DNA from: Prauserella aidingensis
GTDB taxonomy: Bacteria; Actinomycetota; Actinomycetes; Mycobacteriales; Pseudonocardiaceae
DNA length: 64,000 nt
NCBI RefSeq assembly: GCF_024171865.1
Contig: NZ_JAMTCN010000003.1
Span: 200,238 to 264,237 of the forward strand
Direction: 5' to 3'
The translations under genes were made by a program, and so were the position numbers. Below, in pieces: positions 26,026-36,407 of this stretch. Under the pieces are notes generated by a model, which saw only the letters and a list, made by a program, of their open reading frames with translations, was not told the DNA's origin and made no database searches. Position 1 is the stretch's first letter. Each line of letters opens with the position of its first letter.

Positions 26026-26070
26026 CAGTCGGGGCCGGCTCGGTCGGGGCCGGCTCAGTCGGGACAGGCT
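26026..26070. repeat. 15-bp tandem repeat, three units
   Basis: Units 26026-26040, 26041-26055 and 26056-26070 are near-identical with core AGTCGGGGCCGGCT, plus a partial fourth. They fill the space between the convergent aldo/keto reductase and Zn-ribbon genes. No conventional terminator is seen there. Confidence 0.85.
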
Positions 26071-26429
26071 CAGCGGTCGCGCCCGCCGTCGTCGGAGTGA
26101 CGGCGGCGGGCGTCGGCCGCGGCCGACCACACGAGCCGCACCTCGTCCAGCAGCCGCCACGGCTTGCGTGCGGCCGTGCGCGGCAGCGACCCGGTGAACC
26201 CGACCGGGTGCCTGCGCAGCCTGCGCGCCATGCGGCCGGGTTTGCTGAGCATGCGGTGCCGCAAGTCCTGCAGGTAGCGCCGGCGGACGTCGCGTTCGAT
26301 GGAGGTGCCGCACGTCAGGCACGTGGTGACCACCAGCAGCCGCCCGGCGTAGGCGAGTTCGTGCCGCGTCTCGCGGCCGCACCGGTGGCAGGCGAGCGTG
26401 GCGTGTTCGATCGTTCCCTTCGCGCCCAT
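26070..26429 (-). CDS. small Zn-ribbon-like conserved protein
   Basis: The 119-aa basic protein has two Cys pairs: Cys-His-Arg-Cys near residues 13-16 and Cys-Leu-Thr-Cys near 35-38, in the frame MGAKGTIEHATLACHRCG..VTTCLTCG. This is a zinc-ribbon layout followed by an Arg-rich helical tail. I recognise it only as a conserved actinobacterial hypothetical protein. The chosen ATG at 26429 has GGACGGAAG upstream. A GTG at 26453 overlapping the stop of the IspD-like gene (GTGA) would add eight residues and is a real alternative. It is the last gene of the minus-strand operon, so it is probably coexpressed with the dehydrogenase and cytidylyltransferase genes. Function unknown. Confidence 0.75.
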   Translation of the reverse strand: MGAKGTIEHATLACHRCGRETRHELAYAGRLLVVTTCLTCGTSIERDVRRRYLQDLRHRMLSKPGRMARRLRRHPVGFTGSLPRTAARKPWRLLDEVRLVWSAAADARRRHSDDGGRDR

Positions 26430-26449
26430 CGCTTCCGTCCTCGTCGACG

Positions 26450-27217
26450 TCACGTCCGGTAGTCCGCCGCGGCCAGGACCTGCTCGGCGACCACGAGATC
26501 GTGCGGGTAGGTGATCTTGAAGTTCTGTTGCTCCCCGCGCACCCACCGCACCGGGAGCCCGGAGAACCGCTCCATCACCGAGGCCGTGTCGGTGCCCACG
26601 AAGTCATCACGCGCGGCACGCTCGTAGACCTCGAGCAGCGGCCCCGCGCGGAAGCCCTGCGGCGTCTGGGCCCGCACGATCGACGCCGGTTCCTGTCCGG
26701 TGAGCACCCCCGCACCGTCCACGGCCACCAGGTCGTCGGCGGGCAACGCCGGAATGGCTCCCCCACACTCCCGGGCCTCGTGCAGCACACCCGCGATCAG
26801 CGAGGGACTCACCAACGGCCGCGCGGCGTCGTGGATCAGGACCGTGTCGACCGAACCCTCGTCGATGCGGCTCGACAGCCAGCGCAGCGCGCGCAGCTCC
26901 GACTCCTGTCGTGTCTCTCCGCCGTAGACGAGCTCCACCGGCGCGTCGACCTCGCGGTCCAGCACCCAGTCCACCAGGTCCTTGTCCTGCGGGCGCGTGA
27001 CCAGGAGCAGGACACCGATCTCGGGCACCCGCGCGAACGCGTCGAGCGACCACGACACCAGCCTGCGCCCCGCCAACGGCAGGTACACCTTGTTCATCTC
27101 CGCGCCGACCCGCGTCCCGGCCCCGCTGGCCAGCACGACGCCGGCCGCGGGCGGAACCCGGCGGCTCCGGCCCGCCGCGCCCCGCCGGGTTCTCCGTTCC
27201 GCCACGGCGGAGATCAT
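26450..27217 (-). CDS. IspD/TarI-family cytidylyltransferase
   Basis: The 255-aa nucleotidyltransferase has the IspD-family motifs: nucleotide loop VVLASGAGTRVG (about 27-38), HDAARPLVSP, RAQTPQGFRAG, GTDTASVMERF and NFKITYPHDLVVAE. IspD makes CDP-methylerythritol from CTP and 2-C-methyl-D-erythritol 4-phosphate; TarI uses ribitol 5-phosphate. Here the usual Pro-Lys-Gln after the loop is Met-Asn-Lys-Val-Tyr, so the substrate may differ. Actinobacterial housekeeping ispD normally sits with ispF and carD; neither is here, which suggests a paralogue. It starts 12 bp after the E2 stop in the alditol-type operon, so an alditol phosphate is an attractive but unproven substrate. Confidence 0.8.
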   Translation of the reverse strand: MISAVAERRTRRGAAGRSRRVPPAAGVVLASGAGTRVGAEMNKVYLPLAGRRLVSWSLDAFARVPEIGVLLLVTRPQDKDLVDWVLDREVDAPVELVYGGETRQESELRALRWLSSRIDEGSVDTVLIHDAARPLVSPSLIAGVLHEARECGGAIPALPADDLVAVDGAGVLTGQEPASIVRAQTPQGFRAGPLLEVYERAARDDFVGTDTASVMERFSGLPVRWVRGEQQNFKITYPHDLVVAEQVLAAADYRT

Positions 27218-27229
27218 ACGAGACCGGAC

Positions 27230-28570
27230 TCATCCGAGTTCGCCGCCGAGCAACTCGTCGATCGTGGCCAGCAGCCGCGCGCCTGCGACGCCGTCGGCGA
27301 CCCGGTGGTCGACGCTGAGCCCGAGCGTGCACCGCAGCCGGGTGCCGATCCCGCCCGGCACCGGCACCACCCGCGGCTCGACCGTGCCGACGGCCAGCGC
27401 GGTGGCCTGCGGCGGCGTCAGCAACGCCTGAAATCCGCCGACGCCGCTGCCGCCGAGGTTCGACACGGTGCTCGACGCGGTCGCCGACAGCTCCGACAAC
27501 TCCAACCGGCCCGTCCGGGCCCGCGTGACGACGTCGTCGATGCGCCGGGACAGCGTCGAGAGGTCGCCGGTGTCCGGATCGGGCAGCACCGGCGCGAGCA
27601 GTCCCCGTTCGGTGTCGACGGCGATCGCGAGGGACAGCCTGTCGCAGGGCTGCACCCCGTCGTCGGTCCACGTGGCGTTCAGCTCGGGATGCCTGCGCAA
27701 TGCGGCGGCGAGGACGCGGGTGAACACGACCGTCCAGCTCACGCCGCCGCGCCGGCGCTGCGCCTCGTCGAGGTCGACATCGCGGTACAGCACGAACTGC
27801 GGCACGTCGGCGCTCGCCGTCATCCGCCGGGCGATCGCGGCGCGCCCGTCCCGGCGGCGTGCAGGCGCGTTCGCCGGGGACGCCGCCGGTTCCGGCGACC
27901 GATCACCATCCCGCGGCGGCTCGGCCCGCAGCTCTTCGGCCCGCAGCTCTTCGGCCGGGAGATCGGCCACGCGGATCGTGTCCCACGGGCCGGTCGGGGT
28001 GAGCGCTGCGAGGTCCACTCCCCGTTCCCCTGCCAACCGGCGCGCGGCGGGCACGGCGGCGGGCGGGCGAGGCGGAGCCGCTCCGGCCGCGCCGTTGACA
28101 CCCTGGGCCGCCGGGGTGGCGCCGACCGCCTGCCCGCTGTTCACGGGCGCCGGTGCGGAGTCGGGTACCGGAGCCGATGGGGACTCCGGTGCTGGGGTGT
28201 CCGGTACTGGGGTGTCGGGTGCTGCGGGCTCCGGCGCCACGGTGTCCGGTGCTGGGGTGTCCGGCTCCGCGGAGGCGGAATCCGGCGCGGGGTCGTCGAA
28301 CAGCCCGGCCAGGAGATCGTCGTCCTCGGAGTCGACGTAGGCGATGGGGTCGCCGACGGCGATGACGTCCTCCGGGGCCGCGACGAGTTCGGCGAGTACA
28401 CCGTCGACGGTCGCCTCGACCTCCATGTCGACCTTGTCGGTCGTGACCTCGCAGACGACCTCGCCCTGGCGCACCTGCTCGCCCTCGGCCTTGTGCCACG
28501 TGACGAACACGCCTTCGGTCATGGTCATCGACATCTTCGGCATGACCAGCGGGACCTGCTTGTTCACCAT
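27230..28570 (-). CDS. lipoyl E2 acyltransferase of an acetoin-dehydrogenase-type complex
   Basis: The 446-aa dihydrolipoamide acyltransferase has one lipoyl domain (1-78, lipoylated Lys46 in TTDKVDME). A long Pro/Asp/Ala linker (about 88-160) follows, then a short peripheral-subunit-binding region near 170-200 and a catalytic domain (about 235-446) with [10 protein letters not shown] (His422, Asp426). Pairing with AcoA/AcoB-like E1 genes points to an AcoC/PDH-like role: transfer of an acetyl group from the E1 reaction to CoA. It overlaps the E1 beta gene by 7 bp. No dedicated E3 is in the operon; the Lpd at 45299 could serve. The open frame extends far upstream only by reading through E1 beta in another frame. 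Confidence 0.9.
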
Positions 28571-29607
28571 CGCCGCACCAACTCCCCTGCCTTCGTCACG
28601 ATGTCGTCGACCTGTGGCACCGCGGCCTGTTCGAGCTGGGGTGCGTACGGGATCGGCGCGTCGAGGCCGCACAGCCGGGACACCGGCGCCTGCAGCCGGC
28701 CGAACGCGGGCGATTCGACGATGCGCGCGGCGATCTCGGACATGAATCCGCCGGTCTTCGGCGCCTCCTGCACCAGCAGTGCCCGGCCCGTCGCGGCCAC
28801 GCTGTCCACAATGGTCCGATCGTCGAGTGGTCGGAGCGTGCGCGGGTCGAGCACGCCGGCCGACACGCCGTCGGCGGCGAGCCGCTCGGCGGCCTCGAGT
28901 GCGCGCGACACCATCACGCCGGTGGCGACGATCGTGACGTCGGTTCCGGTACGGCGGACCGCCGTCTCGCCCAGCGGCACCCGCACGGGCTCCTCCGGCA
29001 CCGGCCCGCTCTGCTTGTAGAGCAGCTTGTGCTCCAGCACGATCACCGGGTTCGGATCGTCGATCGCGCTGAGCAGTAGGCCCTTCGCGTCGGCGGCGGT
29101 GCTCGGCATCACCACCTTCAGGCCCGGCACGTGGGCGAACCACGCCTCCAGGCTCTGCGAGTGTTGAGCGGCCGCGCCGGTTCCGGAGCCGCCCGGCGCG
29201 CGCAGCACCATCGGCACGGTCGCCGCGCCGCCGAGCATGAAGTGGATCTTCGCCGCCTGGTTGGCGATCTGATCCATCGCCTGGGCCGTGAAGTCGGAGA
29301 ACTGGATCTCCACGATCGGGCGCATCCCCGCCAGGCCCGCGCCCACGGCGGCGCCGACGATCCCGAGTTCGCTGATCGGGGTGTCACGCACCCGCTCGGT
29401 GCCGAAGCGGTGCACCAGATCGCCGCTGACGCCGAACGCACCGCCGTAGGTGCCGACGTCCTCACCGAACAGAAACACCCGGTCGTCGGCCGCCATGGCC
29501 TGCGCCATCGCCTCGCGCACGGCCTCGGAGTAGGTCAGTGTCCGCGGTTCGACCGCCGCCGAGTCCACGGGGCCGGAGGCGGGTCTCGTGTCGCTGGTGG
29601 TCGTCAT
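28564..29607 (-). CDS. acetoin-dehydrogenase-type E1 beta subunit
   Basis: The 347-aa transketolase-like beta subunit has [17 protein letters not shown] (conserved Glu that activates thiamine diphosphate) near residue 50. It also shows [24 protein letters not shown] and [37 protein letters not shown]. It pairs with the alpha subunit 4 bp upstream (ATGA overlap) to form the alpha2beta2 E1. The first 22 residues are an extra tail. PDH and branched-chain E1 beta proteins are close relatives, so the acetoin-type label comes mainly from its partner. It decarboxylates or cleaves its substrate and loads the acyl group on the E2 lipoyl arm. Confidence 0.9.
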
Positions 29608-30632
29608 GCTCGGGCTCCTCCGGCGATCGGCTCCCCTGCCGGGGCGTAGACGGCGTCGGTCAGCGTCGCGGCGTCGGCGTCCGGTGCGGCGTTCGCCGTG
29701 CGGATCGCCTCCCGCACGCGGTCGCGCGCGAGGGTTCTGCACTCCTCGACGTCCGATGCGGACAGTGCGGGCGCGGTGGCGGCGCCTGCCGTCGCACCGC
29801 CACCGGTGACGGCGGCCTCGAACGCCGCGATCGGATCGCGCTCGCGCCAGCTCTCGATCTCCTCGCGGGTGCGGTAGAGGTTCTTGTCGCTCTTGGAGTG
29901 GCCCTTCCAGCGGTAGGTCAGCGCCTCCACGAACGACGGCCCGCCTCCGGACCTCGCCCGCTGTACGGCGTCGGCGACGGCGTCGTGCACGGCCTGCGGA
30001 TCGTTGCCGTCCACCGTCACACCGGGGATGCCGTAGCCGTGCGCACGCTCGGCGAGGGTGTCGACGTTGAACGCCCTGTCGACCGACATCGACATGCCGT
30101 ACCGGTTGTTCTCGCACACGAACACCACCGGCAGGTCCCAGATCGCGGCCAGGTTGACACCCTCGTGCCAGGCGCCCTCGTTGACGGCGCCGTCGCCGAA
30201 GAAGCTGACGACGACCTCGGAGCCGCCGCGCATCCGCACGGCGAGTCCCGCACCCGCCGCGATGGGCACGCCGCCAGCGACGATGCCGTTGGCGCCGAGG
30301 TTGCCGGTGGCGACGTCGGCGATGTGCATCGACCCGCCGCGGCCCCGGCAGTAGCCGGTCTCCTTGGCCAGCAGTTCGGCCATCATCGCGTCGAGCTTCG
30401 CACCCTTGGCGATGCAGTGGCCGTGACCGCGGTGGGTCGAGGTGATGTAGTCGCCTTCGGACAGTGCCATGCAGGCACCCGTCGGCACGGCCTCCTGGCC
30501 GATCGACAGGTGCATCGTGCCGTGCATGAGGCCGCGCGCGAACATGTCGTCCACCGCCTCCTCGAAGCGGCGGATCGTCCACATGGTGGTGAGCGCGTGC
30601 CTGGCCGACTCCGGATCCGTGGTCAGCGTCAC
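29604..30632 (-). CDS. acetoin-dehydrogenase-type E1 alpha subunit (AcoA-like)
   Basis: The 342-aa thiamine-diphosphate-binding alpha subunit has GDGAVNEG (146-153) and CENN (173-176), which form the ThDP/Mg2+ motif. The stretch [17 protein letters not shown] and [11 protein letters not shown]-type sequence match, by eye, acetoin dehydrogenase AcoA better than PDH or branched-chain E1 alpha. AcoA-type enzymes cleave acyloins of the form CH3-CO-CHOH-R, giving acetyl-CoA via the E2 and an aldehyde. The start is GTG at 30632, overlapping the stop of the SAF oxidoreductase (GTGA), so translation is coupled. It is the second gene of the operon controlled by the TGCAC palindromes at 32010 and 32090. 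Confidence 0.88.
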
Positions 30633-31930
30633 GGGAGGGTCACCTCCTCGCCCGCCAGCAGCCGGTCCTGCAGCCTGCGCAGGGTGGCGATCGTCGTGGT
30701 CTCGTCGACGGCGACGTCCTCGGCCGTCAGCACGGTGCCCTCGGGGACGTCGCGGAGCACGCGGCCGCCCGGGACGAGGCCGAGCGGGAGGTGCCCGTCG
30801 TCGCGCACCGCGGAGGCCCGGTCGGTGATGCCGTACACGGTCTCGCCGCCGATGCCGTCGATCCGTTCGCCCGCGGCGAGGTCACGCTTGGCCACCGCGA
30901 GCACCTCGGCGTTCCAGGCCACAGGGGCGAGACTGGGAGTGCGGTCCACGACGGCCTCGGCGACCGACAGCGGCGCCTCGACGCTCGCCAGGTGATACGG
31001 GCGGTAGAAGGTGTAGTACGGGCCTTTGCCCATGCCCAGGTAGGCCATTTCGGACACGACGGCGGGGTGGTCGCTGCGGCCGATGACGAACACGCCGGGC
31101 GCGACCGGGCCGGTGCAGTAGTCGACCATGCCCTCGCCCGGCAACACGCCGCCGTCGGACTCCGGTCGGAAGGTCTCCGCCAGTGCCTCGACCGTGCAGT
31201 GCAGGCCGGTCATGCCCCGCGAGGGCACGACGAGATCCACACCGTTGGCCAGCGCGGCCATCTCGATCATCGTCTTCGAGCCGTCGACGAAGCTGGCGAG
31301 CATGTGCGGGTTCATGCCCTTCGCCTCGGCCTCCTCGGTCAACGACGCGGGTGTGGCCGACGGGCGGAGCGGGTTGTTCTTGCCCTTGCCCGCGCAGACG
31401 ACGTCGAAGCCGATGTCGCGCACGTAGTCGGCGAGGGCCTTGCACTCGACGGGTTCGTCGCCCCGGCACACCGTGTACACGCGGCCCGTCCGCTCGGCGA
31501 CGGTCTTCAGCAGGTAGCCGATGGTCACGTCGCATTCGACGTTGAGCATCGCGATGTCCTGGCCGGCCAGCAGGCCGTGGAACGCCACCCGGGCGCCGAC
31601 CTCGGGCACTCCGCTGGCGTCGACGAGCACGTCGAGCGGCAGGCCGGTCAGCGTGGTGGCGTCGCCGGTGACGACGGGCGTGCCCGCCTCGATCATCCGC
31701 GACAGCTCCGCGCGGTCGCCGCTCAGTACGGCGTCGCCGCGGCCCGCCTCGGCGAACGCACGGCGTCCGCGGTCCGGGGCGATGTCGGCGATCGCCGCGA
31801 CCTCCATCCCGTCGATCCGGCTCGCCTGCACCACGAAGCCGAGCCCCATCTGCCCCGCGCCGACGAGCCCGACCCGGACCGGCCGGCCCAGTTCCCGCTC
31901 CCGTGCTCGCAGCCGATCGACATACCTCAT
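30629..31930 (-). CDS. NAD(P)-dependent oxidoreductase with C-terminal SAF domain
   Basis: The 433-aa protein has a homoserine-dehydrogenase-like Rossmann domain ([12 protein letters not shown], residues 21-32), a middle catalytic region with CAGKGKNNP and a C-terminal SAF domain (about 340-433). The family is annotated variously as SAF oxidoreductase or FlgA-like. I know it as a sugar-acid or polyol-phosphate dehydrogenase group but cannot name the substrate. The start at 31930 has GGAGGAAAC upstream; 29 further upstream codons are not family-like. It is the first gene of the dehydrogenase operon, so it probably makes the substrate of the following acetoin-type complex. The 5' flank carries two copies of the regulon palindrome. 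Confidence 0.85.
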
Positions 31931-32009
31931 CCGCGTTTCCTCCGGTCCGCTTCGCCTGCGCCTGATGCGGGTGAACGTGGGTGCACACCACCGCATCCAC
32001 ACGCCGTGT

Positions 32010-32025
32010 TTGCACAAATGTGAGA
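32010..32025. promoter_or_regulatory. SorC-type operator, imperfect copy
   Basis: TTGCAC-AAAT-GTGAGA matches the full palindrome at 35067 in the first arm and spacer length and half of the second arm. It lies 80 bp upstream of the SAF oxidoreductase start. Confidence 0.6.
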
Positions 32026-32089
32026 ACTATGTGCACCTTGGTTCTTACTTGGTAGCACGGGAGATCTGCAGCACACAAGCGCCAAGGCT

Positions 32090-32105
32090 CTGCACATACG
32101 TGCAC
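32090..32105. promoter_or_regulatory. SorC-type operator
   Basis: CTGCAC-ATAC-GTGCAC has TGCAC/GTGCA arms with a 4-bp spacer, as at 35067. Its centre is 80 bp from that of the 32010 copy, allowing DNA looping or cooperative binding at the promoter of the dehydrogenase operon. Confidence 0.65.
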
Positions 32106-32237
32106 GCGAGGCGGGCGGGGAAACCACGATCGCGATCGCCCGTCGGCGACGGCGCCGTTCCGGCCGCACCCGCCGGCGGACGACCGGAGGTGCGGACAAG
32201 GGAGCCCGGCCGGAACACCGGTCCCGGAACGCACGAA

Positions 32238-32276
32238 GGCGGCCGCGCCTCCCGTCGTCGGGGAGACGCGGCCGCC
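32238..32276 (-). terminator. terminator after gutM
   Basis: A hairpin of about 15 bp (GGCGGCCGCG plus CTCCC with one mismatch, then GGGAG and CGCGGCCGCC) begins 43 bp after the gutM stop. It separates the PTS operon from the promoter of the dehydrogenase operon. Confidence 0.75.
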
Positions 32277-32319
32277 CGCGTTCTCGTGTTCACCGGCCGC
32301 GCCGGCGGACCGGACCCGG

Positions 32320-32715
32320 TCAGGTGCGCGCCGAGCGCAGTCCACCCGCGTTGAGCCGGCCCGCCATGCCGATCGCCTCGCGCACGGCCTTGGCCAGCGC
32401 CGCCGTGTCGGCCCGCTCCTCGGCACCGTCGATCGGACCCGTCAACTCGGTCCGCTCCGTGAACCGGGCGAAGACCGACGCGCCCTGCATCGCCTGTGCC
32501 CGCGTGATCTCACCGCGCCTGCGGTCGATCACCAGCAGCACGATCGCACCGCGGAGCCGGCCTTTCGCCCGGCCGCTCACCAGCAACATCCCGCTGCGGT
32601 TCTCGTCGTCGGCGAGTGCGTTGACGGCGCTCTGATACGCCAGGTGCTGTCGGTAACTGAGCACGCCCGCCACCACGAACGCGCCGAGTACGAGCACCAC
32701 CGCCTGCCACGTCAC
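32320..32715 (-). CDS. gutM: GutM-family protein of the glucitol PTS operon
   Basis: The 131-aa protein has an N-terminal transmembrane helix (about 3-20) followed by a soluble domain with LAYQSAVNALADDENRSGMLLVSGRAKGRLRGAIVLLVID, the GutM pattern. In E. coli GutM activates the glucitol operon together with the repressor GutR (SrlR). GTG at 32715 overlaps the srlB stop (GTGA), so it is the last coupled gene of srlA-srlE-srlB-gutM. A membrane-anchored sensor or PTS-associated regulator is the likely role. Here the DNA-binding partner would be the SorC-type protein at 35454, since no SrlR homologue is present. Confidence 0.82.
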   Translation of the reverse strand: MTWQAVVLVLGAFVVAGVLSYRQHLAYQSAVNALADDENRSGMLLVSGRAKGRLRGAIVLLVIDRRRGEITRAQAMQGASVFARFTERTELTGPIDGAEERADTAALAKAVREAIGMAGRLNAGGLRSART

Positions 32716-33086
32716 GGCGTCGCTCCCCGGAACCCGACCCGCGCACCCGCGGCCGGGGTCGAGATCGTGCCCTTGGCGTGCACGGCGCCCGGAAGGAGCT
32801 CCGTGCCGTCGTCGGGATTCAGGTACACCACGACGTGCCCGAGCGTGCTCAGGTTCTCGTGCGCCCTGTCCCCCACCGCGACCACGTCGACGTCCTCGTC
32901 GCCGATGCTGAACACGTCGCCGGTGCGAATCTCCCGCTCGGGCCCCTTCGCCGGGCCGTGGACCACGCTGACGCTCTCCAGCGCATCCGGGATGGGGTCG
33001 GCGTACAGGATCACGACGCCACCCTCGACCATCTCCGCGGCCTCGTCGCCGGCACGCAGGACCGTGCTCTCGTAGTAGAAGCTCAT
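32712..33086 (-). CDS. srlB: PTS glucitol/sorbitol-family EIIA component
   Basis: The 124-aa soluble phosphocarrier of the Gut family has His43 in SVVHGPAKG. This matches, by eye, the phosphorylated His43 of E. coli SrlB. The conserved LSTLGHVVVYLN and LPGAVHAKG segments follow. It accepts phosphate from HPr and passes it to the Cys of EIIB. The start at 33086 is set by GAGGAGG and by family similarity; a longer frame adds 19 residues without similarity. It lies 32 bp after srlE and overlaps gutM by 4 bp. The Gut family carries hexitols and other alditols, so the true sugar is open. Confidence 0.9.
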   Translation of the reverse strand: MSFYYESTVLRAGDEAAEMVEGGVVILYADPIPDALESVSVVHGPAKGPEREIRTGDVFSIGDEDVDVVAVGDRAHENLSTLGHVVVYLNPDDGTELLPGAVHAKGTISTPAAGARVGFRGATP

Positions 33087-33118
33087 GTGTTCCTCCTCGA
33101 ACCCGAACTCGCCTGCCG

Positions 33119-34240
33119 TCAGAGGCCGAAGCTTGCCGCCCACGCGATGACGACCGCGAGCGGCGAGGTGATCATGCGGCTGATCAGCACCGCGGGAGTG
33201 CCGACGGCCACGGTTTCCGGTTTCGCCTCGCCGAGCGCCAGTCCGACGGGCACGAAGTCACAGCCCACCTGACCGTTGATGGCGAACAGCGTCGGCAGCG
33301 CGTACTGCACCGGCAGTGCACCGATGGCGATCTGGCTGCCCATGAGCGTCCCGACCACCTGCGCGATCGCCGCGCCCGGACCGAGCACCGGCGACAGGAA
33401 CGGCAGTGCGACGACGAAGCTGATGGCGAGCAGGCCGAACGGATTGCTCGCGATCGGCGAGAGCACCTGGCCCATCCACTCGGCCACGCCCGTGTACATG
33501 ACGATGCCGAGCAGCAGGCTCACGTAGGCCATGAACGGCAGGATGGTCTTCAGCGTCAGGTCGATCGTCTGCCTGCCCGCCGCCAGCATCGTGTTGACGA
33601 AGCTGCCCACGGCCGAGCCGAACCCGACGAACACGTTCGTCACCGTGTGGAACGCCTTGCCCAGCGGGCCACCGACCGGGAGGGTCGCCGCTACCGCCGA
33701 CGCGGACGGCCGTTCGTCCCGGGGCGGCACGCCGCCGCCCGAACCCGCGCCGTCCGGCGTCCCGCCGCCCGACGTCCCGCCCGACGCAGCACCGGCCGCG
33801 GCGGTACCCGCGGCTCCGCCGTCCGCTGTGGACCGTTCGACCTCGTTCATGCCCACCGCGGACACGAACAGTTCCTCGGTGATGAATTTCGCCAGCGGCC
33901 CACCGGGAGCGCCCGGGTAGACGTCGACGGTCGGGATGCCCTTGCGCGGGTAGACGCCGATGCGCGCGGTGCCGCCGCAGTTGATGACGGCGGCCACCAC
34001 CTCGTCGTCGGGCACCGTCGTGTTGAAGCCGTCGACCGCCTCGGCGCCGGTGAGGTCGGCGATCTTCTGCGCCACGGGGTGGATCCCGCCGCCGGTCACC
34101 GAGAGCACCTTCGTGCGCTGCTCGTCGGCACGCAGGGTCAGACCCGGTCCCCAGCCGCCCGCGCCCGCGCGGACGAACACCGTGGCCGTGTCCGTACCGG
34201 TCGTCGCCTCCCGGCCCGCCGTCGTCTCGCGCTCGGTCAT
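33119..34240 (-). CDS. srlE: PTS glucitol/sorbitol-family EIIB-EIIC2 component
   Basis: The 373-aa protein has an N-terminal EIIB domain (about 20-135) with the phosphorylated Cys88 in INCGGTARIGVYPRKG. A flexible Gly/Ala/Ser/Thr linker follows (about 137-185), then a C-terminal membrane half (about 195-373) with four or five helices (ILPFMAYVSLLLGIVMYTG, AISFVVALPFLSPVLGPG, INGQVGCDFVPVGLALGEA). It passes phosphate from SrlB to the incoming sugar and forms the channel with SrlA. The linker is much richer in Gly than I expect for enterobacterial SrlE. It overlaps srlA by 4 bp (ATGA). Confidence 0.92.
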   Translation of the reverse strand: MTERETTAGREATTGTDTATVFVRAGAGGWGPGLTLRADEQRTKVLSVTGGGIHPVAQKIADLTGAEAVDGFNTTVPDDEVVAAVINCGGTARIGVYPRKGIPTVDVYPGAPGGPLAKFITEELFVSAVGMNEVERSTADGGAAGTAAAGAASGGTSGGGTPDGAGSGGGVPPRDERPSASAVAATLPVGGPLGKAFHTVTNVFVGFGSAVGSFVNTMLAAGRQTIDLTLKTILPFMAYVSLLLGIVMYTGVAEWMGQVLSPIASNPFGLLAISFVVALPFLSPVLGPGAAIAQVVGTLMGSQIAIGALPVQYALPTLFAINGQVGCDFVPVGLALGEAKPETVAVGTPAVLISRMITSPLAVVIAWAASFGL

Positions 34241-34887
34241 GCCTTCTCACCCGCCTTCGCCTGCTCGAACTGCCGATCGAAATCGGCGAAGACCTCGCTG
34301 CGGCCGGTCCGCTTGATCATGAACGCCGTGAGCTTCTCGGTGACGATGCCGCGGATGAAGATCACGAGGATGCCCACCAGGAAGTAGCGCAGCGCCAGCG
34401 GCACGGTGGACTCGCCGAGCTGCGTGACGCCGTTCGCGATGCCGAACCAGACGAACAGCTCACCGGCGTTGGCGTACGGGAAGAACGTCGTCACCGGGTG
34501 CACGAACGACACCGCGGAGTCGTAGAACGCGGGCTTGTACCGCTCGGGCAGGAAGCGTCCGAACGAGTAGGCCATCGGATTCGTCAACATCAGCAGCGCG
34601 AGTATCGGCATGACCGAGTAGCGGGTGATCCACCACCGGCCGCACCACTGGACGGCTCGCGTCACGCGCTCCTCGCCGATGAACGTGGTGAGCGCGTACA
34701 TGAACGTGAGCAGCACGATCAGTGTCGGCAGGATGCCGGTCACCAGATCGACGAACTGAGAGCCCGCTTCCTCGAACAGGCCGATGAAATGGGTTCCCAG
34801 CCATTCGAAGACACCCAGCACACCCCCGCTCGTCTCACCCTCCGGCTGAGCCGGCTGCTGCTGCGCCATTACAGCAAGCACTTGCAT
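34237..34887 (-). CDS. srlA: PTS glucitol/sorbitol-family EIIC component
   Basis: The 216-aa membrane protein of the SrlA/GutA family carries LPTLIVLLTFMYALTTFIGEERVTRAVQ and TNPMAYSFGRFLPERYKPAFYDSAVSFVHPVTTFFPYANAGELFVWFGIA. The latter is the conserved substrate-binding segment. It forms the sugar channel with SrlE. The ATG at 34887 is preceded by AAGGAGG with 7-nt spacing; the longer open frame upstream lacks similarity. It is the first gene of the PTS operon and divergent from HPr, sharing a 292-bp promoter region with the TTGCAC-N4-GTGCAA operator. EI (ptsI) is not in the window. Confidence 0.92.
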   Translation of the reverse strand: MQVLAVMAQQQPAQPEGETSGGVLGVFEWLGTHFIGLFEEAGSQFVDLVTGILPTLIVLLTFMYALTTFIGEERVTRAVQWCGRWWITRYSVMPILALLMLTNPMAYSFGRFLPERYKPAFYDSAVSFVHPVTTFFPYANAGELFVWFGIANGVTQLGESTVPLALRYFLVGILVIFIRGIVTEKLTAFMIKRTGRSEVFADFDRQFEQAKAGEKA

Positions 34888-35066
34888 TGCCTGGCCTCCT
34901 TCTCGGCCCCCGCGGATATGCACTGATCGGCATCCGGACCACCCCGTGATCCACCGGTCCGGCGCCTGCAGGATCGGGTCCGACGACGTGTCGTCGTCCC
35001 GATCGCCGCCCCGGACCCTGTTGTCCGGGACTCGCTGGTTGTACGAAACTCCGAGGAAGAGTCTCG

Positions 35067-35082
35067 TTGCACGAATGTGCAA
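35067..35082. promoter_or_regulatory. SorC-type operator, perfect palindrome
   Basis: TTGCAC-GAAT-GTGCAA is a perfect 6+6 palindrome in the divergent srlA/HPr promoter region. It lies 6 bp upstream of a -35-like TTCACG for the HPr-SorC transcript. Related sites at 32010 and 32090 precede the dehydrogenase operon. Confidence 0.75.
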
Positions 35083-35088
35083 ACCTTG

Positions 35089-35117
35089 TTCACGTTTGCC
35101 AGTGATGTGTGTAACAT
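35089..35117 (+). promoter_or_regulatory. promoter of HPr-SorC operon
   Basis: TTCACG (35089-35094) and TAACAT (35112-35117) are separated by 17 bp. The HPr start codon is 62 bp downstream with a good Shine-Dalgarno, so this transcript has a normal leader. Confidence 0.5.
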
Positions 35118-35179
35118 GCCGTCGAACCGTCGACAAGGCCCCGGAGGCGACCGGGGCCGAAGAGCAAAGGAGCGTCTCC

Positions 35180-35446
35180 ATGCCGGAGATCCAGGTCAAG
35201 GTCGGCTCGTCCGTCGGACTGCACGCCAGGCCCGCGAGCCAGTTCGTCAAAGCCGCGACCGCCACCGACAGCGACGTCCGCATCGGCAGGCCGGGCACGG
35301 ACCTGGTGGACGCTCGCAGTATGTTGTCGGTGCTGAGCCTGGCCATCGGGCACGGCGAAGAGGTCGTCCTGCGCACCGACGGCAACGGCGCCGACGATGC
35401 GCTCACCGAACTGTCCCGCATGCTCGAGTCCGATTTGGACGCGTGA
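35180..35446 (+). CDS. ptsH: HPr phosphocarrier protein
   Basis: The 88-aa HPr carries the EI-dependent phosphorylation site His15 in VGLHARPAS. Ser47 in DARSMLSVL is at the position of the HPr-kinase Ser46. It hands phosphate from EI to SrlB. AAAGGAG precedes the ATG at 35180. It lies at the head of an operon with the SorC-type regulator (7-bp gap) and divergent from the PTS genes. It may therefore be a dedicated or inducible HPr, or the only HPr of the genome; the window cannot tell. EI must be encoded elsewhere. Confidence 0.93.
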   Translation: MPEIQVKVGSSVGLHARPASQFVKAATATDSDVRIGRPGTDLVDARSMLSVLSLAIGHGEEVVLRTDGNGADDALTELSRMLESDLDA

Positions 35447-35453
35447 TCCGTCG

Positions 35454-36407
35454 ATGCCACCGCCCCGCGATCAGCAGTCGCTCGTCGCAGCGGCGCGGCT
35501 GTACTACGAGGAAGGTCGCTCGCAACACGAGGTCGCCAAAGCACTGAACATCAGTCGTTCCAGCGTGTCGAGAATGCTCACGGCCGCACGGGAACACGGC
35601 ATCGTGCGCATCGAGATCAATGATCCGACGGGACGCGACCTGGACCTCGAGGCCGAACTCTCCGAACGGTTCGGCCTGCGGGACTGCCGCGTCGCCGAGA
35701 TCCACGGTGGTGACCGGCCACTGCAACGCGTCGGCGATCTCGGGGCGCGCTGGCTGCTCGACACGATCCAACCGGGACAACGGATCGGGGTGTCGTGGGG
35801 CACGGGCCTGCAGGCGCTGGTGCAGTCCATTCCGGACGACGGCGGGCTCGACGTCGAGGTGGTGCCACTGGTGGGCGGACTGTCCGCAGTGGACACCGCC
35901 ATCAGCGGCGAGGAACTGGTCCGCGACCTGGCGGGCCGGCTCGGCGGCCGGTACCAGCGCCTGCACGCCCCCGCGTTGCTGACCTCCAAGGAGGGCAGGG
36001 ACGTGCTACTGGCCGAGCCGAGTGTCCAGGCCACCCTGGAGTCGGCCCGGCGGGTGCAGGTCGCGCTCGCCGGCATCGGCCGGGTGGGCCGCGGGTCGTC
36101 GGCGTCGTTGGTGACGGCGATGAACCTGTCCGCCGAGGAACGTGCGGGCCTCGACGCCGCCGCGCCGGTCGGCGACGTCTGCGCACGGTTCTTCGACGCC
36201 GAGGGCAGGGCGGTCACCGGCCCCGCCGACGACCGCGTGCTCGCCGTGTCACTGGCCGACCTGGCGGCGATCCCCACCGTCGCGGGCGTGGCGGCGGGCC
36301 CGGAGAAGGCCGACGGCGTGCTCGGGGCGCTGCACACCACGGTGCTCGACGTGCTGGTCTGTGACAGCTCACTGGCCAGGGCGCTGCTCGCACGCGCCGC
36401 GCGGTAG
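35454..36407 (+). CDS. SorC/DeoR-type (sugar-binding) transcriptional regulator
   Basis: The 317-aa protein has an N-terminal helix-turn-helix (about 20-52: YYEEGRSQHEVAKALNISRSSVSRMLTAAREHGIVRI) and a C-terminal sugar-binding domain of the SorC family (about 58-317: GVSWGTGLQALV, VPLVGGLSAVD). SorC-family regulators respond to phosphorylated sugars. Here the ligand would be the PTS product or a derived ketose phosphate. It is cotranscribed with HPr and is the obvious candidate to bind the TTGCAC-N4-GTGCAA palindromes at 35067, 32090 and 32010. The start at 35454 is 7 bp after the HPr stop; the upstream open frame reads through HPr. It closes the accessory island. Confidence 0.92.
   Translation: MPPPRDQQSLVAAARLYYEEGRSQHEVAKALNISRSSVSRMLTAAREHGIVRIEINDPTGRDLDLEAELSERFGLRDCRVAEIHGGDRPLQRVGDLGARWLLDTIQPGQRIGVSWGTGLQALVQSIPDDGGLDVEVVPLVGGLSAVDTAISGEELVRDLAGRLGGRYQRLHAPALLTSKEGRDVLLAEPSVQATLESARRVQVALAGIGRVGRGSSASLVTAMNLSAEERAGLDAAAPVGDVCARFFDAEGRAVTGPADDRVLAVSLADLAAIPTVAGVAAGPEKADGVLGALHTTVLDVLVCDSSLARALLARAAR

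Follow-up and report, generated by a model that had tools for sequence, protein, structure and literature searches.

Which pathway would join a sugar-alcohol transporter, an oxidoreductase, a lipoyl-dependent dehydrogenase and an isoprenoid-type cytidylyltransferase is the question raised by a locus of the actinobacterium Prauserella aidingensis. The locus lies in a stretch of 64,000 nucleotides, hereafter the window (positions 200,238 to 264,237 of NZ_JAMTCN010000003.1, assembly GCF_024171865.1), on contig C4 of a 5.65 Mb genome. An earlier sequence-only reading had described here a Gut-family phosphotransferase system (PTS), a SAF-domain oxidoreductase, an acetoin-type dehydrogenase, an IspD-like protein, a Zn-ribbon protein, HPr and a SorC-type regulator, and every part of this inventory, coordinates included, holds on open reading frames, family scans and motifs. 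In this work we propose that the two operons of the locus probably form a catabolic pathway for 2-C-methyl-D-erythritol (ME), which would be the first steps of isoprenoid biosynthesis run backwards, and of which versions or parts are found in rhizobia, Listeria and tiny ocean bacteria.

The reductoisomerase and the proposed pathway

The key to this reading is the oxidoreductase (30629..31930, minus strand), which matches the Pfam domains DRL_cat (PF21135, E 4.2e-63) and SAF, and whose best solved structures are those of Brucella DXR-II (3upy and 3upl, E about 1e-97; 1.2e-97 for 3upy). Identity to the Brucella abortus enzyme 3upy is 41.1% over 418 columns, and among the listed loci Prauserella isguenensis has the most similar DRL (97%). 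According to passages of PMC3847144, DXR-II is a second kind of 1-deoxy-D-xylulose 5-phosphate (DXP) reductoisomerase, in which Lys191, Lys193 and Thr229 hold fosmidomycin, an inhibitor, in place and presumably do the same for the substrate, Arg320 sits at the dimer interface, and Thr229 is absolutely conserved while being replaced in the DLO families. At the positions given there, all four residues are kept in 94 of the 97 rows of our DRL alignment (67 from Actinomycetota, the window counted, and 30 others), the window included; the three rows in which the signature fails (L098, L104 and L105) are DLO-type by residues. Thr229 and Arg320, both present in the window, are among the sites that separate DXR-II from DLO1 and DLO2. 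In a tree of 53 rows with one verified DXR-II reference, the window and 3upy fall within a group of 42 rows free of any DLO row (support 80/85), L104 and L105 split off at 100/100, and the placement of L098 is unsettled. By sequence, the DRL of the window looks like a DXR-II.

Since this family interconverts DXP and the branched polyol phosphate 2-C-methyl-D-erythritol 4-phosphate (MEP), the substrate of the enzyme should be MEP rather than a straight 1-deoxyalditol phosphate, and the imported polyol should be ME or a close branched relative. The sequence-only reading had instead envisaged a 1-deoxyalditol, oxidised at C2 by an ordinary dehydrogenase to a 1-deoxyketose phosphate. Such a route would likewise yield an acyloin for the E1 enzyme encoded next to the DRL gene, but it is highly improbable for an oxidoreductase that carries the DXR-II residue signature and whose best solved-structure match rearranges the carbon skeleton, and it was set aside because the enzyme family is that of a reductoisomerase. 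Two other elements of that reading gain support, namely a Gut-type PTS feeding an oxidoreductase that would make a 1-deoxyketose phosphate, and an IspD gene that points to DXP and MEP.

The same chemistry might also act on another substrate, such as 2-C-methyl-threitol, apiitol or a further branched polyol, given that the substrate cannot be read from PTS or kinase sequences. Position 250 agrees with this, being Thr in the window where His is usual in DXR-II (all but four known members) and replaced in 56 of the 67 Actinomycetota rows. We nevertheless consider another substrate quite unlikely, as PMC3847144 reports complementation tests in which eleven DXR-II proteins made MEP, the IspD gene of the operon indicates MEP, and an E1 that needs a methyl-ketone acyloin would suit ME but not apiitol.

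For ME, the proposed route would begin with import and phosphorylation to MEP by the Gut-family PTS with its own HPr. The PTS operon comprises, 5' to 3' on the minus strand (34887 down to 32320), srlA (EIIC and proposed ME importer; 34237..34887; EII-GUT E 4.5e-74), srlE (EIIB/C; 33119..34240; NF049924 392 bits, slightly below the cut-off of 400), srlB (EIIA; 32712..33086; gutA E 5.8e-17) and a gutM-like gene (32320..32715; PF06923 E 3e-14, above cut-off). All three Gut-type components, EIIC, EIIB and EIIA, are therefore represented, with srlA above its NCBIfam curated (SrlA equivalog) cut-off and srlE and srlB below theirs. A gap of 389 bases separates gutM from the second operon, in which the genes for DRL, E1 alpha, E1 beta, E2, IspD and the Zn-ribbon protein follow one another on the same strand (31930 down to 26070); taking the starts judged likeliest, the stop codon of one gene overlaps the start of the next at four of its five junctions. 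HPr (35180..35446; PF00381 E 4.8e-23, LHARP motif intact) and the SorC-type sugar-binding regulator (35454..36407; PF04198, Sugar-bind, E 1.8e-59) are encoded on the plus strand at 35180-36407. In the second step DXR-II, acting in reverse of its known direction, would convert MEP and NAD(P)+ to DXP. In the third, E1 and E2, together with an E3 presumed to be encoded elsewhere, would turn DXP, coenzyme A (CoA) and NAD+ into acetyl-CoA, glyceraldehyde 3-phosphate and NADH, and the cluster IspD would convert MEP to the cytidine diphosphate derivative of ME (CDP-ME), so that the same pool would also feed isoprenoids. The sum of the catabolic steps would be ME + phosphoenolpyruvate + CoA + two NAD(P)+ giving acetyl-CoA + glyceraldehyde 3-phosphate + pyruvate + two NAD(P)H. 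These three steps appear chemically sensible, each with some precedent. What the sequences themselves show are the identities and family placement of the genes, the active-site residues, the recurrent linkage, the exchange of import modules and the conservation of a palindrome; substrate, direction, cofactor and regulation are inferred.

The cleavage step is assigned to E1 alpha (29604..30632; PF00676, E1_dh, E 1.4e-83), with an intact thiamine pyrophosphate (TPP) motif GDG...NN, E1 beta (28564..29607; NF006667 368 bits, cut-off 321; Transketolase pyr and C domains) and a lipoyl E2 acyltransferase (27230..28570) with the 2-oxoacid_dh, lipoyl and E3-binding domains (PF00198, PF00364 and PF02817) and intact lipoyl DKV and HxxxDG motifs, all on the minus strand. 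The earlier description of an AcoA-like, acetoin-type dehydrogenase fits in so far as a two-subunit TPP E1 and a lipoyl E2 are present, but not in its family placement. In a tree of 44 chosen E1 beta rows, 27 of them DRL-linked, 24 of the linked rows (Actinomycetota and Alphaproteobacteria, with the window's own) fall in one group (support 98/96), which an outsider on a long branch, the E1 of a Streptomyces plasmid, also joins. A separate group unites the annotated acetoin dehydrogenases with the second E1s found in L019 and L020, the two other E1 betas of the host genome (contigs C3 and C37) lie elsewhere, and annotated branched-chain E1s stand apart as well. The linked E1 betas of Aerophobetes (L069, L070) and Priestia (L093) fall outside the main group, and L075 and L082, whose E1 genes lie some kilobases away from DRL, count as unlinked in the tree. 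Acetoin use was set aside because the E1 clade differs. The idea that E1/E2 cleave a 1-deoxyketose phosphate acyloin gains support as a reading of the sequences. Parts of PMC3424233 state that mutant pyruvate dehydrogenase (PDH) E1s lead to DXP in E. coli and credit purified PDH with forming 1-deoxyxylulose, and a 1986 title cited there concerns 1-deoxyketose formation by pyruvate and acetoin dehydrogenases. Cleavage of DXP would break the bond that these reactions form, and the acetyl unit would be handed to the lipoyl-E2.

ME is made by plants and many microbes. We know of no earlier pathway that degrades it, and neither methylerythritol catabolism nor DXR-II in a catabolic operon appears in the titles and abstract openings of the literature matches listed.

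Linkage across phyla

The pairing of transporter, DRL and E1 recurs. A genome-contig scan with the DRL of the window confirmed 129 relatives, of which the best 80 were kept by similarity to that protein and so do not represent a random sample of the family (66 loci from Actinomycetota and 14 from other groups); gene content was read by tblastn with the proteins of the window. srlA and srlE occur together in 57 of the 80 loci, E1 alpha and beta in 60, and both sets in 56, alongside SorC in 62, IspD in 48 and an E2-family gene nearby in 48. Within the Actinomycetota the PTS pair is found in 57 of 66 loci, the E1 pair in 56 and both in 56; PTS and E1 are both absent from the stretch in seven loci (L045, L048, L049, L059, L072, L073 and L074), and on three short contigs (L036, L038 and L051) srlE is present and E1 beta was not found.

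Plasmids widen this picture, 111 records having a DRL match. Among the 14 examined, E1 adjoins or lies near DRL in seven. Agrobacterium (L094) and Sinorhizobium (L095 and L096) carry an ABC sugar transporter, a sugar kinase (of the PfkB family in Agrobacterium), DRL, E1 alpha, E1 beta, E2 and lpdA, and a Priestia plasmid (L093) has an MFS transporter and an FGGY kinase with DRL, the E1 alpha, E1 beta, E2 and lpdA genes lying three genes off. Gut PTS, DRL and the E1 set recur with an EI (PTS enzyme I) of their own in Pseudoroseomonas (L099, Acetobacteraceae) and Terrarubrum (L100, Hyphomicrobiales), while Aminobacter (L101) has E1 alpha, E1 beta and E2 with DRL and no kinase or PTS seen, and L107 joins DRL to an ABC transporter with neither Gut PTS nor E1. 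Three further records of the 14 (L098, L104 and L105) hold the DLO-type rows. PTS, ABC transporter plus kinase, and MFS transporter plus kinase are thus three routes of import and phosphorylation onto the same DRL-E1 core, and the two operons of the window are one conserved unit whose arrangement is not due to chance. The recurrent linkage that the sequence-only reading had called for is therefore found, in genome and plasmid loci and across phyla.

These neighbourhoods also bear on the reading that the locus simply serves sorbitol use and that the 2-oxoacid dehydrogenase next to it is unrelated, for which the naming of the Gut PTS genes after sorbitol speaks. We regard it as barely credible: the family scans found no sorbitol-6-phosphate dehydrogenase family (srlD) among the cluster genes, the ground on which plain sorbitol use was set aside, and DRL accompanies the Gut PTS in Actinomycetota, Pseudomonadota and Bacillota alike.

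Several variants of the cluster were observed along the way. The rhizobial DRL-E1 operon ends with lipA, the gene for lipoyl synthase (L094 15288-16262, L096 15193-16161), consistent with a lipoyl-dependent E2, and in an Actinomarina cluster a lipoyl domain of 90 amino acids alone replaces the full E2 (L064 13207-13479). On a Ligilactobacillus salivarius plasmid (L097 9001-16575), DRL, Gut PTS, GutM and a regulator are followed by fructose-6-phosphate aldolase and transketolase, possibly another way to cleave DXP. A Clostridioides difficile plasmid (L106) carries SorC, an MFS transporter, E1 alpha, E1 beta (56% identical to that of the window), E2, lpdA and PTS genes, with no DRL match in the stretch. 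DRL clusters of Chloroflexota and Planctomycetota (L075-L079, L081, L083, L084, L086 and L087) combine SorC, SIS-domain, Zn alcohol dehydrogenase and FucI_C-type genes with an FGGY kinase and an rbs-type ABC transporter, as assigned by Pfam in L079 and elsewhere by similarity, not every gene occurring in every locus; they perhaps represent a related branched-sugar pathway. A Zn-ribbon-like gene, which in the window (26070..26453, minus strand) encodes two intact CxxC motifs and has a GTG start overlapping the ispD stop, is present in 29 of the 80 loci.

Isoprenoid genes and the cluster IspD

An enzyme of the DXR-II family could equally be thought to serve isoprenoid synthesis. The host genome, however, contains DXS and DXR-I (TIGR00243 above cut-off), so that DRL is not needed for isoprenoids there, and DXR-I occurs in 18 of 45 DRL genomes. 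A draft genome of Sediminivirga (G012) possesses HMG-CoA reductase, and profile searches of that draft found no DXS above cut-off, no DXR-I and no IspG; its locus (L034) holds Gut PTS, gutM, DRL, E1 alpha, E1 beta, E2 and SorC, with no IspD match. If the draft is complete in this respect, DRL cannot serve isoprenoid synthesis by the MEP pathway in this organism.

One alternative is backup isoprenoid synthesis, in which E1 would substitute for DXS and DRL for DXR with IspD acting next, the PTS genes being mere neighbours. The mutant PDH E1s that lead to DXP (PMC3424233) favour it, as do nine of the 23 genomes tested that have IspG and DRL without HMG-CoA reductase or a DXS above cut-off, and all of which have E1 (G013, G015, G017, G020, G022, G024, G030, G032 and G035). 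Eight of the nine carry the Gut PTS-DRL-E1 cluster, and G035 (L070) has DRL, E1 and an FGGY-type kinase with no PTS. DXR-I is found among them only in G013 (L040, Micrococcales bacterium 31B), which unites DXR-I and IspG, no DXS above cut-off and a Gut PTS-DRL-E1-E2 cluster. An E2-family gene, present near DRL in 48 loci, is nevertheless unneeded for DXS chemistry, three kinds of import module interchange beside DRL, Sediminivirga is without IspG, and the host has both DXS and DXR-I, all of which makes backup synthesis very unlikely. Four genomes with DRL and IspD and no PTS nearby (G016, G018, G019 and G026) have all kept DXS.

The IspD-family protein of the window, a MEP cytidylyltransferase of the cluster type (26450..27217, minus strand; PF01128 E 6.9e-50), exceeds its Pfam cut-off and falls just below the curated cut-off of TIGR00453 (178.6 versus 181.3 bits). 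Seven of eight MEP- and CTP-binding (cytidine triphosphate) columns checked are kept, with Leu at the equivalent of T140 (E. coli numbering and roles). The 48 IspD matches among the 80 loci divide into 35 of the cluster type, nine housekeeping IspDF genes adjoining in Microbacteriaceae, and four in Nitriliruptorales. At the CarD-IspD-IspF site of the host chromosome (L091 1483-2187), the resident IspD scores 90 bits against TIGR00453 (cut-off 181.3), over positions 93-219 only, and is decayed. Nei-Gojobori estimates from a single genome pair (host and P. isguenensis) give it a ratio of nonsynonymous to synonymous substitution rates of 0.64 with nine gap columns, compared to 0.05 for CarD, 0.02 for IspF and 0.10 for the cluster IspD.

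Fourteen actinobacterial loci, aquatic as it seems (L043-L046, L048-L053, L057-L059 and L073), have a similar second IspD-like protein next to the cluster IspD, and a companion is also recorded in L138 (17983-18708); the four tested score 48-51 bits against Pfam IspD, and CarD adjoins the gene in L044 and L046. Across 36 cluster-type IspDs the K27 equivalent is kept in all 36, K213 in 35 and T140 in none, an exception being Nonomuraea (L025), which has lost the R20 and K213 equivalents. The 16 companions show the opposite pattern (K27 and K213 in none, T140 in all 16), and the nine housekeeping IspDFs retain all three. In E. coli IspD, the side chains of T140, D106 and R109 are contributed by the partner subunit. 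Such complementary losses predict a two-gene heterodimeric IspD with its catalytic half in the ME cluster, and on these residue patterns we are inclined to favour that arrangement. A CDP-glucitol role, as assigned to an IspD-type gene of Campylobacter in parts of PMC10918830, was considered for the cluster IspD and rejected; it leaves DRL and E1 unexplained, and the best family match is IspD.

A second alternative gives isoprenoids precedence over catabolism: the cluster would mainly salvage environmental ME through MEP and IspD, with E1/E2 as an overflow. A cluster-type IspD in 35 of the 80 loci and in the window, signs that it is the working IspD of the host, and the rescue of a Salmonella dxr mutant by external ME (PMC3994034) all lend this some weight. 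It is nonetheless unlikely, since Sediminivirga has the cluster with neither IspD nor IspG, 56 of the 66 Actinomycetota loci retain E1 alpha and beta, and the host has its own DXS and DXR-I.

Catabolism of ME has to be weighed as the preferred reading, and a number of points count against it. DXR favours MEP formation, so that reverse flow needs a pull from the cleavage step. The 14 non-Actinomycetota loci of the genome scan include no Gut PTS, and four have E1 alpha and beta; on plasmids of Listeria (L102), Enterococcus (L103) and Ligilactobacillus (L097), Gut PTS and DRL occur with no E1. His250 is found in 11 of 67 Actinomycetota rows versus 28 of 30 others. NAD use typically goes with an acidic residue where strand beta-2 ends, and Asp or Glu stands there in 94 of 96 readable rows, the Brucella enzyme having a SARR stretch. 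The acidic residue is also seen in two DLO-type rows and in DRLs without PTS or E1 nearby, and the equation of this residue with NAD use and hence with catabolism, when tested, did not separate the direction of the reaction. The cluster IspD may be the sole working IspD of the host and hence essential, in which case the operon could not be fully off without ME and would need an internal promoter or basal expression. According to PMC3424233, the DXP formed by wild-type PDH does not suffice for the rescue of a dxs mutant. The title of Testa 2004, cited in PMC3994034 and PMC12323621, has the sorbitol PTS transport methylerythritol into Salmonella, and a passage of PMC3994034, citing that paper, ascribes phosphorylation of ME to an ATP-dependent kinase, which makes phosphorylation by the PTS a tentative step.

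The isoprenoid side extends to a family of small marine actinobacteria. In 29 Actinomarina genomes (completeness of at least 75 requested, most of the Dxs-less genomes surveyed being incomplete assemblies), DXS above cut-off and DXR-I are each found in none, DRL in 25 and IspG in 26, and no HMG-CoA reductase was found in the three genomes tested (G030, G032 and G046). DXS-like proteins of about 640 and 670 amino acids in G030 proved to be a transketolase and a fused PDH E1. Gut PTS and E1 are both present in the Actinomarina loci of the first scan (L064, L066 and L085) and in three of ten further DRL regions (L131-L133); neither is nearby in the other seven (L125-L130 and L134), which must use another route. 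ME dependence of the whole family therefore fails, on loci around which the rest of the genome was not searched for Gut PTS. These seven have the order PtsI-IspD-DRL (IspD-DRL in L129), with a UPF0047-family gene after DRL in the two checked (L127 and L129). Some ocean relatives without DXS and DXR-I may still depend on environmental ME. Parts of PMC10663253 list 181 species missing only Dxs, 172 of them without a proposed mechanism, and ME import offers a testable answer for some bacteria of that 2023 list.

Regulation and relation to known systems

A single SorC regulator would act on both operons through a common palindrome. An exact copy (TTGCAC-N4-GTGCAA, 35067..35082) lies between srlA and HPr, and two candidate operators with two mismatches each lie 5' of DRL (32010..32025 and 32090..32105). 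The palindrome was spotted by eye in the window and then scored, with at most two mismatches and gaps of 3-5, against single-base shuffles in 58 regions upstream of srlA and DRL from 29 sequences (28 picked from the 80 loci, some near-identical, and the window). It occurs in 35 of the 58 regions versus 2.1 expected from shuffles, and a general repeat search of the promoter regions listed no such palindrome among its repeats. We infer that SorC binds it as a candidate operator.

The branching of the DRL tree carries an evolutionary suggestion. Five rhizobial-type DRLs, of which four are linked to E1, form a group with Brucella DXR-II (100/99), and the Gut PTS- and E1-linked L099 and L100 are sister to that group (100/99), which suggests, without proving, that biosynthetic DXR-II derives from a catabolic enzyme. 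A broader proposal, whose chances we put below even, is that DXR-II was at its root a catabolic enzyme of ME degradation and that the biosynthetic enzyme of Brucella was recruited from it later, its cofactor site being altered, and, in addition, that some streamlined ocean and freshwater actinobacteria with Gut PTS, DRL, IspD and E1 and without DXS or DXR-I depend on environmental ME as a vitamin-like source of isoprenoids. Were ME catabolism confirmed, it would be the first pathway known to us for the degradation of methylerythritol, and it would explain why functional DXR-II is scattered among bacteria with no need of it, which in PMC3847144 include mevalonate users and species without an isoprenoid pathway.

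Among known systems, the MEP pathway shares with the cluster the intermediates MEP and DXP and the IspD family; its own first two conversions would take the opposite direction here, as a source of carbon and energy. The methylthioadenosine (MTA)-isoprenoid shunt, as described in parts of PMC10663253, is likewise a source of DXP other than DXS, with another substrate and other enzymes. With the srl/gut sorbitol operon the cluster has IIA, IIB, IIC and GutM in common, but DRL takes the place of sorbitol-6-phosphate dehydrogenase, and a SorC regulator and an HPr of its own are added. Acetoin dehydrogenase (AcoABC) resembles the cluster in its two-subunit TPP E1 and lipoyl E2, and the proposed reaction is modelled on its acyloin cleavage, which yields acetyl-CoA and an aldehyde, whereas the E1 beta of the cluster lies apart and the proposed substrate is DXP. 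Brucella abortus DXR-II (3upy, 3upl) has the same domains and the same Lys191, Lys193, Thr229 and Arg320 as its 41% identical relative in the window; the latter differs in its acidic beta-2 end and Thr250, in a host that already has DXR-I, and in the reverse direction proposed for it within a catabolic operon.

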